Source of the DNA: Phycisphaerae bacterium
GTDB lineage: Bacteria; Planctomycetota; Phycisphaerae; SM23-33
Length of the DNA: 53,755 nucleotides
Reading direction: 5' to 3'
Assembly: GCA_011050235.1 (NCBI GenBank)
Contig: DRGC01000011.1
Location: 1 to 53,755, forward strand
Below, one piece after another: positions 7,747 to 26,656 of the stretch. The stretch's first letter is position 1. The number at the start of each line of letters is the position of its first letter. Below the pieces are notes generated by a model, which was not told the DNA's origin, ran no database searches, and saw only the letters and a list, made by a program, of their open reading frames with translations. The position numbers and the translations under genes are program-made.

Positions 7747-7986
7747 CCCCCGATAGCTCAATGGGTAGAGCGAGTCCGCCGCGGGCGGATTAACCGCGAG
7801 TTCGTCGGGCTGTGACAACAGAATATTCCCCGATAGCTCAATTGGTAGAGCGAGTCCGCCGCGGGCGGATTAACCGCTAGGGCGTCGGTCCGTGACAACA
7901 GAATATTCCCCGATAGCTCAATTGGTAGAGCGAGTCCGCCGCGGGCGGATTAACCGCGAGTTCGTCGGGCTGTGACAACAGAATAT
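7747..7986 (+). repeat. Three 80-bp tandem tRNA-Asn-derived units carrying a palindrome
   Basis: CGATAGCTCA starts at 7751, 7831 and 7911, and again at 7991 in the intact tRNA: an exact 80-bp period. Each unit holds the tRNA-Asn 5' half (acceptor strand, D arm, GAGCGAG). A perfect inverted repeat, TCCGCCGCGGGCGGA (7775-7789, 7855-7869, 7935-7949), then replaces the CGGCTG that carries the first anticodon base. TTAACCGC follows, then about 35 nt unlike a T arm that ends ACAACAGAATATTC. Anticodon GTT and the T arm are lost, so the units are not functional tRNAs. Units 1 and 3 share GCGAGTTCGTCGGGC; unit 2 differs (GCTAGGGCGTCGGTC), so the copies have diverged. Confidence 0.85.
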
Positions 7987-8059
7987 TCCCCGATAGCTCA
8001 ATTGGTAGAGCGAGCGGCTGTTAACCGCTAGGTTCTAGGTTCAAGTCCTAGTCGGGGAG
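7987..8059 (+). tRNA. tRNA-Asn (GTT)
   Basis: A 73-nt cloverleaf. Acceptor TCCCCGA pairs with TCGGGGA, with discriminator G at 8059. The D arm is GCTC...GAGC. The anticodon stem AGCGG/CCGCT has loop CTGTTAA, giving anticodon GTT. The T arm is CTAGG/CCTAG with loop TTCAAGT. CCA is not encoded. It is the fourth member of the 80-bp periodic array and the only intact one. It probably shares the promoter at 7672-7699. Confidence 0.93.
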
Positions 8060-8080
8060 TTCTTTTCTTAGGGGTCAGCC

Positions 8081-8356
8081 ATGTATTGGGTGTATGTGCT
8101 TGTTAGCGAGAGCACGGGTAAACGCTACGTCGGCCAGACCGCCGATCTCAAGCGTCGCCTGGTTGAGCACAACACCCCTGAGCACAATCGACGCAAACAC
8201 ACGAGCCGAAACGCCGGCCCGTGGCGGCTGGTCCACCGGGAGAACTATCCCACCCGAGCCGAAGCTATGCGCCGAGAGAAGTGGCTGAAATCCGGTGCCG
8301 GCCGTCTGTGGCTGGATGAGACGATCGGTAGAGCAAGTCCGCCGCAGGCGGATTAA
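8081..8356 (+). CDS. Small GIY-YIG endonuclease-domain protein (between tRNA-Asn and a tRNA-Asn fragment)
   Basis: A 91-residue, single-domain GIY-YIG protein of the UPF0213/URI type. It opens MYWVYVLVSESTGKRYVGQT (the GIY and YIG strands as YVL and YVG). QTADLKRRLVEHN supplies the catalytic Arg helix, then WRLVHRENYPTRAEAMRREK contains the probable metal-binding Glu. AGGGG lies about 7 nt before the ATG, and the gene starts 21 nt after the tRNA-Asn. Its last codons (IGRASPPQAD) are read from a tRNA-Asn D-arm-like segment plus the palindrome TCCGCCGCAGGCGGA, and its stop TAA is the TTAA of the tRNA anticodon loop. The natural C-terminus has therefore been replaced or fused. It may be a homing-type nuclease of a small mobile unit, or simply a house-keeping paralogue; activity is unproven. 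Confidence 0.8.
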   Translation: MYWVYVLVSESTGKRYVGQTADLKRRLVEHNTPEHNRRKHTSRNAGPWRLVHRENYPTRAEAMRREKWLKSGAGRLWLDETIGRASPPQAD

Positions 8357-8413
8357 CCGCTAGGTTCTAGGCCGCAGATCCGCCTCCGGCGGGTCCAAGT
8401 CCTAGTCGGGGAG
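8324..8413 (+). pseudogene. tRNA-Asn fragment interrupted by two palindromic elements
   Basis: The segment keeps ATCGGTAGAGCAAG (D arm), TTAACCGCTAGGTTCTAGG (anticodon 3' side, variable loop, T stem) and TCCAAGTCCTAGTCGGGGAG (T loop, acceptor 3' strand). TCCGCCGCAGGCGGA (8338-8352) replaces the anticodon 5' side. A second palindrome-bearing insert (about 8372-8393, with CCGCC TCC GGCGG) splits the T loop. The 5' acceptor strand is missing, because coding sequence of the GIY-YIG ORF takes its place. Confidence 0.75.
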
Positions 8414-23883: not shown

Positions 23884-24609
23884 ATGGCCGTCACCAAAGG
23901 GAAGATCCAGAAGAACCTCGCCGCCATTCGCGAAACGATCGCCGAACATTGTCAAATCGCCCGGCGAGATCCCAGCGAGGTATCGATTGTCGCGGTCGTC
24001 AAGTCGGTCGACCTGGAGACCATCAAGAACCTGCTGGACGTCGGGCTCACCGAGTTTGGCGAAAGTCGCGTCCCTCACATGGTCGACCGCGCCGCCGAGA
24101 TCGACGCCCATCTTCGCCGCCGGCAGAATCCACTGCCAAGGCCGCTGCGGTGGCACATGGTGGGCCACCTTCAGCGGAACAAGGCCCGGGCCGCCTGCGG
24201 GGTCGCCGATGTGATCCACTCGATCGATTCCCTGCGACTGGCCGAGGAGGTCAACAAGCGGGCGGAGCAGGCCGACAAGGTGATGGATGTGATGCTGCAG
24301 GTCAACTGCTCGCAGGAGAAGCAGAAGTCCGGCTGCGCCGTCGGAGCGTCGGTGCACCTGGGCGAGATGATGACCTCGCTGAAGAACCTTCGGCTGGTGG
24401 GGCTGATGACGATGGGGCCGTTAACGAAGAATATGGACCTGTCGCGGCACACGTTCACGCGGCTGCGGGAGATCTTCGAGGAAATGCAATTGGAGAAGAT
24501 CGGCGGGGCCGATTTTCGCCATCTGTCAATGGGGATGAGCAACGACTACGCCATGGCCGTCGAAGAAGGCGCCACCATCGTCCGCATCGGCACGGCGCTG
24601 TTCAAGTAG
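23884..24609 (+). CDS. yggS: YggS/PLPBP-family pyridoxal phosphate homeostasis protein
   Basis: A 241-residue TIM-barrel PLP-binding protein of standard family length. The cofactor lysine is in IVAVVKSVDLETIKNLLDVG. Family motifs follow: EFGESRV, WHMVGHLQRNKAR, VIHSIDSLRLAEEVNKR, VMLQVNCSQEKQKSG, LVGLMTMGPL, LSMGMSNDYAMAVEEGATIVRIGTALF. It holds PLP without known catalysis and buffers vitamin B6 and amino/keto acid balance. It lies downstream of the methyltransferase-like gene on the same strand with a 69-nt gap, and is convergent with the PfpI-like gene. Confidence 0.9.
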   Translation: MAVTKGKIQKNLAAIRETIAEHCQIARRDPSEVSIVAVVKSVDLETIKNLLDVGLTEFGESRVPHMVDRAAEIDAHLRRRQNPLPRPLRWHMVGHLQRNKARAACGVADVIHSIDSLRLAEEVNKRAEQADKVMDVMLQVNCSQEKQKSGCAVGASVHLGEMMTSLKNLRLVGLMTMGPLTKNMDLSRHTFTRLREIFEEMQLEKIGGADFRHLSMGMSNDYAMAVEEGATIVRIGTALFK

Positions 24610-24625
24610 CGCCGAACCGCCCTGC

Positions 24626-25144
24626 TCAGGCCAGGGCCTGGATGATGGCCTGGCAGAAAGCGGGCAGATCATCGGGCTTGCGGGATGTGATCAGCTTGCC
24701 GTCCACGACCACCTCCTCGTCGACGTAGTCGGCGCCGGCGTTGATGAGGTCGTCCTTGATCGCCATGAAACACGTCGCGCGTTTTCCCCTGGCCGCTCCG
24801 GTCGAGCACAACATCCACCCGCCGTGGCAGATGGCGGCGATGATCTTATCGGCGTCGACGGCGTGCTGCAGGAACCGCACCATCGACGGGTCGCGCCGCA
24901 TGAAGTCCGGCGCCCATCCGCCGGGGACGATCACGGCGTCGAAGTCGCCCCCGTTGACATCCGCAGCGGCGACATCCGAATCGCAGGGATAGCCGAGCTT
25001 GGATGGATAGCTCGCATGAGCCTTGGGGCCGACGCGCAGGACCTGGGCGCCGGCCTCGACCAGCCGGTAGTAGGGGTACCAGACCTCAAGCTCCTGGTAT
25101 TGCCGATCCACCATCACAGCGACGCGTTTGCCCTTCAGCGACAT
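24626..25144 (-). CDS. DJ-1/PfpI family protein
   Basis: A 172-residue single-domain protein. The start at 25144 (MSLKGKRVAVMV) has AAGGAG 8 nt upstream. The conserved nucleophile elbow is IIAAICHGGWML (Cys-His), with the supporting Glu in YQELEVWYP and a FDAVIVPGG strand. Members act as deglycases, chaperones or peptidases (YhbO/PfpI group); which applies here cannot be told. It follows the GIY-YIG gene on the same strand. Confidence 0.85.
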   Translation of the reverse strand: MSLKGKRVAVMVDRQYQELEVWYPYYRLVEAGAQVLRVGPKAHASYPSKLGYPCDSDVAAADVNGGDFDAVIVPGGWAPDFMRRDPSMVRFLQHAVDADKIIAAICHGGWMLCSTGAARGKRATCFMAIKDDLINAGADYVDEEVVVDGKLITSRKPDDLPAFCQAIIQALA

Positions 25145-25217
25145 GGCCGTTCTCCTTGCACCCAAGATCTCAGGGGTTGTGGCAGTTTCTGCAACAGACG
25201 ATACGACGTCGAGGGCG

Positions 25218-25580
25218 TTATGGCAACAGGGAGGCGAAGGTGCGGGGGCGTCGGCGGCCGAGTGTTTTGAGTTTCACCATGTCGCCAGCGATCAGGGCCT
25301 GTTTCTTGTGGTGCGTCCATCGTTTGACTTGGCGCTCACGTTCGACAGCGTCGCCTCGGGATGGGAATCGCTGGTGATAGACAAGACGGACGGGTCGGCG
25401 TGCAGCGGTGTAGGCGGCGGCTTTTCCCGTCTGGTGCGCGCGAAGGCGAAGCTGAAAGTCAGCCGTCGAGCCAACATAGAAGCTTCCGTCGGCGCACTGG
25501 AGAATATAGGCGAAATGGGCCTTTTCGGTGGCCAAGAGATTGCCCTTCGACTCGCTGCGCTCGCTCAGGACATTCTCCAT
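25218..25580 (-). CDS. Second small GIY-YIG endonuclease-domain protein, downstream of tRNA-Ala
   Basis: A 120-residue ORF. The GIY-YIG core is HFAYILQCADGSFYVGSTADF (YIL and YVG strands), then LRLRAHQTGKAAAYT with the catalytic Arg, and PSRGDAVERERQVKRW with the conserved Glu. The first 13 residues (ENVLSERSESKG) are coded by a dispersed element (25543-25572). The only ATG lies directly after the palindrome 25582-25601, whose AGAAGG could act as ribosome site. A TTG start nearer the domain (LLATEKAHF) is an alternative. The gene begins 30 nt after tRNA-Ala in the same orientation, mirroring the tRNA-Asn/GIY-YIG arrangement at 8 kb. The C-terminus (KTLGRRRPRTFASLLP) is basic and unlike the first copy. 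Confidence 0.75.
   Translation of the reverse strand: MENVLSERSESKGNLLATEKAHFAYILQCADGSFYVGSTADFQLRLRAHQTGKAAAYTAARRPVRLVYHQRFPSRGDAVERERQVKRWTHHKKQALIAGDMVKLKTLGRRRPRTFASLLP
25543..25572. repeat. Expanded CTTCGAC..GCTCAGGACA element
   Basis: CCCTTCGACTCGCTGCGCTC followed by GCTCAGGACA. It is the same family as the copies in ligA and the left-edge gene, with an inner TCGCTGCGCTCGC hairpin-like expansion. On the minus strand it encodes LSERSESKG of the GIY-YIG ORF. Confidence 0.6.
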
Positions 25581-25581
25581 A

Positions 25582-25601
25582 GCTCCGCCTTCTGGCGGAG
25601 C
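25582..25601. repeat. GCTCCGCC/GGCGGAGC palindrome between tRNA-Ala and GIY-YIG ORF
   Basis: GCTCCGCCTTCTGGCGGAGC has an 8-bp perfect stem and a 4-nt loop. It lies between the tRNA 3' end and the start codon of the GIY-YIG ORF. Confidence 0.7.
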
Positions 25602-25610
25602 GACGGAGAA

Positions 25611-25683
25611 TGGAGCCGAGGGGAATCGAACCCATGACCTGCTGATTGCGAACCAGCCGCTCTCCCAACTGAGCTACGGCCCC
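25611..25683 (-). tRNA. tRNA-Ala (CGC)
   Basis: 73 nt on the minus strand, starting GGGGCCGTAGCTCAGTTGG. The anticodon arm is GCTGG/TCAGC with loop TTCGCAA (anticodon CGC). The T loop is GTTCGATTC, the acceptor end CGGCTCC and the discriminator A. CCA is not encoded. A GIY-YIG ORF follows 30 nt downstream. Confidence 0.93.
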
Positions 25684-25696
25684 ATGGGTAGGCACG

Positions 25697-25724
25697 ACTA
25701 TATCGGACATCAGGCCGATTTCAA
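25697..25724 (-). promoter_or_regulatory. Sigma70-type promoter of tRNA-Ala
   Basis: On the minus strand, TTGAAA (25724-25719) and TATAGT (25702-25697) are separated by 16 nt. The -10 lies 13 nt before the tRNA 5' end. Confidence 0.55.
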
Positions 25725-25905
25725 ACAGGTTTCTCGCGCCCTTGCAGGGCGAGGGGGCGGGCGGTATTGTGGTCTGTGGCGGCGCAAGGCGGTTTCGATC
25801 TAGAGCGTGTTGTGTTGGCCCATAGCGCCGCGCGATACACCCGAATGCAATGCGATCTAACGTGTGAGGGCGAGGCCCTTTGGCTGATTGCGGGCCGGAT
25901 GGATG

Positions 25906-26262
25906 ATGACGAAACAACGGGCCACCAGGCGTTATCGCGTTCGACATCGCGCGGATTTTGCGCGGGTGTTCGCGGCAGGGCAAAGTGCTCGGGACGAGTT
26001 GGTCACGGTGATGGCCGTCGCTAACGGCTTGCGGCAGGCGCGGCTGGGCACGGCCGTCTCCAAACGGCTGGGCGGGGCCGTTCGCCGAAACCGGATGAAA
26101 CGACTGATCCGCGAGGCGTTCCGGCTGATCCGGTGCGAACTTCCCGGCGGGTACGACTACGTGGTTCTGCCACGTTCCGGCGCCCGGCTAACGGTTGGAG
26201 GCCTGCAAGAATCTCTTCGACGCCTAGCCCCACGAGCGGCTGACAAGGCGGCGACGACATGA
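25906..26262 (+). CDS. rnpA: Ribonuclease P protein component RnpA
   Basis: A 118-residue basic protein of normal RnpA length. RHRADFARVFAAGQ, LGTAVSKRLGGAVRRNRMKRLIREAFR (the RNR signature helix) and GYDYVVLPRSGA are the conserved blocks. It binds RNase P RNA and pre-tRNA for 5' maturation. The start at 25906 gives MTKQRATRRYRV; ATG 25903 is equally possible and no strong ribosome site is seen. It overlaps yidD by ATGA. The usual upstream neighbour rpmH is absent; a divergent tRNA-Ala lies there. Confidence 0.92.
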   Translation: MTKQRATRRYRVRHRADFARVFAAGQSARDELVTVMAVANGLRQARLGTAVSKRLGGAVRRNRMKRLIREAFRLIRCELPGGYDYVVLPRSGARLTVGGLQESLRRLAPRAADKAATT

Positions 26263-26516
26263 CGGGCCGGGCAAATATATCCGAAAGCTGCCCATCCCCG
26301 TCAGTGGCGGCAAAAGTGTTGATTCTTATGGCGAGGCTGTATCAGTTGACGCTATCACCACTCATAGGCGGGCACTGCCGGTTCGCGCCCACGTGCAGCC
26401 GGTATTTCGTCCAGGCCGTCCTCCGCCATGGCGCCCTGCGCGGCGGGTGGTTGGGGCTGCGACGGCTGGTCCGTTGCCATCCTCTTGCCCGAGGAGGGGT
26501 CGATCCGGTGCCCTGA
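26259..26516 (+). CDS. yidD: Membrane protein insertion efficiency factor YidD
   Basis: An 85-residue protein with the family signature spread over LYQLTLSPLIGGHCRFAPTC, SRYFVQAVLRHGALRGGW and RLVRCHPLARGGVDPVP. YidD assists YidC-dependent insertion of inner membrane proteins. Its start codon overlaps the rnpA stop (ATGA), the classic rnpA-yidD coupling. yidC, often next, does not follow here. Confidence 0.92.
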   Translation: MTGRANISESCPSPSVAAKVLILMARLYQLTLSPLIGGHCRFAPTCSRYFVQAVLRHGALRGGWLGLRRLVRCHPLARGGVDPVP

Positions 26517-26656
26517 GGCTCATTGTGACGCCTCGACCAAGCCGATGTTGGAGGAAAGTCGTTGAGAGGTCCGACGAGGCCCGTCCCCCTGCCCCTTCCA
26601 GTCGGCTGGGCGAGTTTGACAAATGTTCCGGGATGGGGCCTAATGATACTGGGCCA

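Follow-up and report, generated by a model that had tools for sequence, protein, structure and literature searches.

Small GIY-YIG genes are located directly downstream of tRNA and tmRNA genes at a frequency far above chance, and one such gene, found behind tRNA-Ala(CGC) in a 53,755 nt stretch of a Phycisphaerae genome (contig DRGC01000011.1, here the window), is on balance best read as the coding part of a small homing-like mobile cassette residing at tRNA and tmRNA 3′ ends. A probability of about 0.6 is assigned to this reading, in which the nuclease specificity and the mobility are inferred. The location, the layout, the copies without an ORF, the patchy presence and the tracking of tRNA isotype in one class of loci are shown. 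The pattern points to little-known mobile DNA that would use essential RNA genes as landing sites, mobility again being an inference.

The tRNA-Ala(CGC) gene is located on the minus strand at 25611–25683 (Rfam RF00005, 62.2 bits; placed at 25610–25684 by ARAGORN) and stops at the discriminator base, so that CCA is not encoded. It is followed by a co-oriented ORF of 120 codons (25218–25580, minus strand), whose first ATG follows the tRNA 3′ end at a distance of 30 nt; this arrangement, proposed in an earlier sequence-only reading of the window, held in Rfam, ARAGORN and Pfam searches. The UPF0213-like product has a GIY-YIG domain (25305–25517, minus strand; PF01541, 59.5 bits in the genome search) as its sole Pfam domain (E-value 6.5e-16, 58.8 bits versus a cut-off of 22.6), and no extra DNA-binding domain was found by Pfam behind it within the 120 amino acids. 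In the alignment A1 of GIY-YIG proteins, Y4 and E61 were invariant and R24 was present in ≥90% of the sequences; these conserved Tyr, Arg and Glu residues we take to be the catalytic residues of GIY-YIG. The nearest relatives in PDB were the UPF0213 proteins 1zg2 and 1ywl.

The start codon of the ORF is uncertain, as the upstream ATG is perhaps over-called and a later TTG start after AAGGG is a possible option. The earlier reading had derived the first 13 residues from a dispersed element; the element itself was confirmed (ST core, 25544–25569), and its residues would fall outside the protein if the later start is used. Proteins encoded around the ORF were assigned by Pfam scan to DJ-1/PfpI, alanine-racemase-like, rnpA and yidD. 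No integrase was among these scanned neighbours, which leaves an integrase-borne element unsupported, and no Y1 (RAYT) transposase was seen beside the palindromes, the scanned neighbouring ORFs belonging to other Pfam families. A group I intron origin was likewise rejected for lack of Rfam support: the scan of 24600–26600 returned the tRNA and one sub-threshold YrlA with no intron, and the NCBIfam model grpIintron_endo scored far under its cut-off.

The window's own genome contained six PF01541 matches in five genes. All four of the small GIY-YIG genes were just downstream, on the same strand, of tRNA-Asn, tRNA-Ala, tRNA-Val and tmRNA, respectively, and the uvrC-size GIY-YIG gene had no tRNA within 1.5 kb. 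Among 77 small GIY-YIG loci of 100 related genomes, a tRNA or tmRNA gene was present ≤300 nt upstream on the same strand at 36 (tmRNA in eight cases) and on the opposite strand at none; downstream neighbours were on the same strand at seven loci and on the opposite strand at none, resulting in 40/77 loci with a neighbour on either side. With 50 RNA genes per genome, only ca. 0.16 upstream neighbours would be expected among the 77 loci, and 0.003 for tmRNA alone against the eight observed, and P is ~1e-75 for the adjacency at 36/77 loci under this simple model. The 77 loci represent 78 rows down to E 1e-8 minus L070 (478-aa frame); G061:C17 (581-aa frame) was also excluded. Neither of the two control sets had a tRNA or tmRNA neighbour, i.e. 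0/11 uvrC-size frames (rows weaker than E 1e-8, labelled by frame length without a family search) and 0/13 members of the sister subfamily “YVYILASKRNGTLYIGVTNN”. Outside this subfamily, 40/64 loci were beside a tRNA or tmRNA gene according to ARAGORN (either side), and 49/64 when tmRNAs recognised by Rfam only (L067, L072), partial tRNA copies beside the ORF (L009, L020, L023, L025) and insertions in 23S rRNA genes were added. Class and subfamily labels were given by eye. The genome-wide count had been named in the sequence-only reading as the test that could refute a non-random association of tRNA and GIY-YIG genes; with 4/4 and 36/77 loci it did not, and that claim is supported.

The theme proved broader than first suggested, with tmRNA and 23S rRNA genes also among the hosts and the palindromes forming part of the element; the copies without an ORF, the replaced anticodon arms and the T-loop break points described below had not been foreseen at all. 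Three GIY-YIG ORFs were located inside 23S rRNA genes, in L024, L041 (about 1501–1782) and L031 (about 1501–1761; ORF-oriented coordinates). An almost perfect inverted repeat closes off each of them (e.g. TCCGTCACTTGATTTA / TAAATCAAGTGACGGA). In one genome (G054), the 23S GIY-YIG insertion was present in two rRNA copies.

Beyond the lineage, the 80 best of 555 type-A relatives from named genomes had a tRNA or tmRNA gene upstream on the same strand at 4/80 loci versus 0.13 expected, and these four include Nitrospirae and Kiritimatiellae. In 78 Omnitrophota genomes the neighbourhood was found at 14/49 loci (10 upstream on the same strand, one opposite, four downstream on the same strand; 29 new loci and 20 more high-ranking rows), and in seven named genomes at 5/21. 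The tRNA link is thus strongest near the window's lineage and weaker elsewhere. The nearest named match was from Phycisphaerae. One Omnitrophota genome (G104, with locus L123) had 11 GIY-YIG matches, located beside tRNA-Leu and tRNA-Gln among others. IMG/VR returned 17 type-A relatives, two of which, on the viral contigs L319 and L325, had tRNA-Arg(TCT) 15 nt upstream of the GIY-YIG ORF on the same strand.

Two architectures were found, the Ala locus representing class II and the Asn pair of the window class I. Against phage records, the class II window ORF produced 24 matches, each with <60% identity; the class I ORF had no match among 50,697 phage records, which leaves a phage origin for it without support there.

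Class II loci have the order RNA gene end, palindrome P1, palindrome P2, ORF, as seen in loci of the own genome, the relatives, Omnitrophota, Nitrospirae and Kiritimatiellae. In the window, P1 (25571–25612, minus strand) is an inverted repeat with 19 nt arms (25571–25589 and 25594–25612; 89% complementary), anchored on the last two nucleotides (CA) of the tRNA-Ala(CGC) gene with TG at the other end, and with an inner hairpin CTCCGCC-AGAA-GGCGGAG. A palindrome at 25582–25601 had been noted earlier at the ORF start; it was confirmed, yet it is only the inner part of this larger repeat, whose end overlaps the tRNA gene by 2 nt. P2, the ST element (25542–25571, minus strand), has the core CCTGAGCGAGCGCAGCGAGTCGAAGG at 25544–25569, i.e. 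CCTGAGC-N-GTCGAAGG, and occupies the same position in other class II loci, with a T run after it in several. Window P1 and P2 folded together reached −38 kcal/mol (z −4.4), and the anchored repeat of P1 was 8 nt long (shuffle P 0.005). In 41 class II loci, the inverted repeat starting at the tRNA end had a mean arm of 9.5 nt versus 4.5 nt in shuffled sequence; the anchored repeats met P<0.05 at 30 loci and were not significant at 11, and at 31/41 loci the arms started within the last 1–3 nt of the RNA gene as defined by ARAGORN. Strong folds (z −2.3 to −9.2) were obtained for five example loci.

P1 also occurs without the ORF. One P1 pattern without tRNA bases had 10 sites in 100 genomes, nine of which begin at the first base after a tRNA or tmRNA gene (two tRNA-Ala, three tRNA-Leu, and tmRNA, Val, Tyr and Glu once each); the remaining site, downstream of one of these tRNA-Leu genes, is an inverted copy. 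In G004, the P1 copies at tRNA-Val, tRNA-Tyr and tRNA-Glu were on contigs without a GIY-YIG match; hence copies without the ORF exist. At tRNA-Ala(GGC), P1, P2 and the ORF were present in G008, and G028 of the same genus had P1 and P2 of another sequence and no ORF, for which reason the palindromes at tRNA-Ala could be tRNA terminators.

The strict 25 nt form of P2 occurred once in the window's own genome and the ST core five times; the core was present in 29/40 searched genomes (own included) with up to 63 copies, the reversed-pattern control giving 0–2. Around type-A ORFs (80 loci), 69 copies were counted in 63 kb near the ORF versus 12 in 631 kb elsewhere, a 58-fold enrichment that holds even away from tRNAs; the nuclease is thus associated with palindromes more widely than with tRNAs. 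The core was nearby at 34/80 type-A loci, and inverted copies flanked the ORF on both sides at 11/80. A second, isolated ST core (CCTGAGCCGAGTCGAAGG) was detected in the window at 1149–1166. The short palindrome TCCGCC-N-GGCGGA had 46 sites in the own genome versus eight for the reversed control; it may be a moving unit, which is left undecided, as short palindromes can have other causes.

The class I Asn pair of the window spans 7754–8413 on the plus strand. Three left pseudo-tRNA-Asn copies with an 80 nt period (7754–7956), in which TCCGCCGCGGGCGGA takes the place of the anticodon arm, are followed by the intact tRNA-Asn(GTT) (7986–8060, ARAGORN), the first small GIY-YIG ORF (8081–8356), and a right pseudo-tRNA-Asn (8323–8413) that contains the last codons of the ORF and consists of the D arm, the palindrome TCCGCCGCAGGCGGA, a second palindrome at the border of T-stem and T-loop, and the 3′ end. 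Such second palindromes were also found in the right copies of L036, L020 and L042. An ORF among partial copies of its own tRNA was identified at 17 loci (the distant copy of L065 left out), in addition to L017, L039 and L063. Class I copies match the tRNA to nt 27–29, a short palindrome then replaces the anticodon arm, and identity is back at nt 45–49, or already at nt 36 in the Asn copies; the palindrome sequence varies between genomes, its palindromic nature being kept. In left copies outside Asn, identity was lost at nt 53–59 in 7/8 cases, nt 55–57 being the start of the T-loop; in the exception, L061, identity continues into the T-loop after a mismatch at nt 52. The comparison covered 11 class I loci; L010 and L075 had no exact-seed copy, and three Asn copies had no seed. 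Tandem pseudo-tRNA arrays with hairpins for anticodon arms are strange under any reading. Two contigs, L189 (G029:C524) and L192 (G094:C5), had arrays of pseudo-tRNA-Asn, the anticodon arm again exchanged for a palindrome, ahead of an intact tRNA-Asn, and no listed GIY-YIG match, and the relatives' contigs in L189, L190, L192, L197 and L198 end shortly behind tRNA-Asn, as if the repeats break assemblies.

An empty and an occupied state were seen at tRNA-Pro within one genus: G028 has a single tRNA, and G008 adds a 5′ half, a palindrome and the ORF, an insert of only ~335 nt between common flanks. On the protein tree, which is short and weakly resolved (L004, L026, L030, L058, L070 and rows <60 aa left out), the class I isotype tracks the proteins (seven changes versus 12.4 shuffled, n=21), and the class II isotype hardly does (27 versus 30.8, n=46).

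In the proposed reading, the cassette consists of the tRNA end, P1, P2 and the GIY-YIG nuclease gene. Transcription reading through from the RNA gene would express the nuclease gene, at a level kept low by the terminator-like P2. The nuclease would cut cassette-free tRNA or tmRNA genes at or near the conserved T-arm GTTCRANTC, and the break would be repaired by host recombination from a cassette-bearing copy, as in homing, with the RNA gene staying intact. Copies that lose the ORF may persist as palindromes at tRNA ends; here the ORF-less copies are observed, and their loss of the ORF is an inference. The window Asn pair and the other class I loci would be a sister form, whose insertion would have left behind tRNA copies in which a palindrome stands for the anticodon arm. 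The T-arm is suggested as target because it is common to tRNAs and tmRNA, because class I break points fall there, and because of a motif fit: the GIY-YIG enzyme SegB of phage T6 prefers RAWTSGAAC (PMC13096335), the reverse complement of which, GTTCSAWTY, fits the tRNA T-arm by our own inference. T-arm cutting by the window-type nuclease is consequently borrowed by analogy from a phage enzyme. A recoded replacement tRNA in class I was ruled out, the Pro and Asn anticodon stems being identical in occupied and empty relatives (pattern searches, 100 genomes); as the intact tRNAs are not recoded, self-cutting must be avoided in some other, unexplained way. After this prediction failed, the anticodon arm as the only nuclease site was dropped, and the T-loop fits the break points better. 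Against the cassette reading stand, besides this failed prediction, the facts that no copy was observed moving, that only 4/80 type-A relatives across many phyla are behind tRNA or tmRNA genes, that class II elements have no defined right-hand border, and that 11/41 anchored repeats lacked significance.

A bolder reading, which we regard as somewhat less likely than not, posits palindrome-bounded mobile elements whose sole gene, a GIY-YIG nuclease of ~100 aa, would be aimed at the T-arm of all tRNAs and tmRNA and would seed ORF-less palindromes at tRNA 3′ ends, with elements common in the window's lineage and Omnitrophota and palindrome-flanked relatives in many phyla. For class I it supposes that the original tRNA is turned into flanks without an anticodon; precise loss of the element would then leave behind a non-functional tRNA gene.

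The most serious rival to the cassette reading, although an unlikely one, is a simple SegB-like free-standing homing endonuclease that homes next to tRNAs, with palindromes that are only terminators or chance REP-like repeats. SegB is free-standing, has its cut sites within phage tRNA genes and is over-represented close to phage tRNAs (PMC13096335), and both the T run after P2 in several loci and the isotype tracking of class I fit this view. However, P1 is anchored on the last tRNA bases and recurs at tRNA ends without the ORF (as pattern-tested), and the ST core remains enriched around type-A genes even away from tRNAs. A housekeeping role, i.e. an immobile structure-specific nuclease that is transcribed together with tRNAs and serves repair or RNA processing, would account for the nearly consistent co-orientation and for UPF0213-like proteins being widespread; it is very unlikely in the face of the varying host gene (Ala, Asn, Val, Leu, Pro, Ile, His, Met, tmRNA, 23S), the patchy presence among genomes of the same genus, and the tandem pseudo-tRNA arrays and ORF remnants.

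Integrases classically insert at tRNA and tmRNA 3′ ends, which speaks for cargo or remnants of ordinary integrative elements with attachment sites at tRNA ends; with no integrase among the scanned neighbours and so short an insert in the Pro pair, this explanation is very unlikely too. An assembly or gene-calling artefact could be suspected in a 98-contig assembly, and contigs often end near these tRNAs, but it is all but excluded by the same layout on chromosome-size contigs (G087, G093, G054) and in other phyla.

On present evidence the element behaves like a free-standing GIY-YIG element, its membership being unproven and site-specific cutting and biased inheritance inferred. The segB gene of phage T4 is located between tRNA genes (PMC2988022), and SegB is tRNA-linked in phages (PMC13096335); phage Seg-type genes share with the present family the GIY-YIG domain, the free-standing gene, the position beside tRNA genes and the motif that fits the T-arm. 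In contrast to them, this family is chromosomal in bacteria, encodes ~90–120 aa, has tmRNA and 23S hosts, and displays palindromes between RNA gene and ORF, ORF-less copies and pseudo-tRNA arrays. The SegB-type family carries an extra DNA-binding domain behind GIY-YIG. The UPF0213 entries 1zg2 and 1ywl are alike in sequence and domain and are called hypothetical, and a tRNA link of UPF0213 proteins was not found in the open-access literature searched. REP/RAYT systems resemble the family in palindromic repeats tied to a gene for a small DNA-cutting protein and in orphan copies, these RAYT features being general background; here, GIY-YIG stands in place of the Y1 transposase, which was not seen, and the sites are at tRNA ends. 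Intervening sequences of 23S rRNA can hold an ORF, and the 23S hairpins of L024, L041 and L031, closed by inverted repeats, are similar to them; unlike those sequences, the present ones code for GIY-YIG, and most family members are behind tRNAs. The ORF-less copies at the same kind of site (Val, Tyr and Glu in G004) are reminiscent of MITE-like non-autonomous families.

No GIY-YIG genes linked with bacterial chromosomal tRNA or tmRNA ends, or with REP-like palindromes, were recognised in the open-access literature searched. If the cassette reading is true, tRNA-homing GIY-YIG nucleases extend from phages to bacterial chromosomes, tmRNA and tRNA ends gain a new type of resident, and a candidate nuclease becomes available for part of the many orphan palindromes in bacterial genomes. 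The finding makes it a direct question whether a 100-aa protein recognises the T-arm. As a separate observation, a ~155 nt A/T-rich palindromic repeat, found at L038 (oriented 1050–1202), recurred dozens of times, in both orientations, in G008, G032 and G034.
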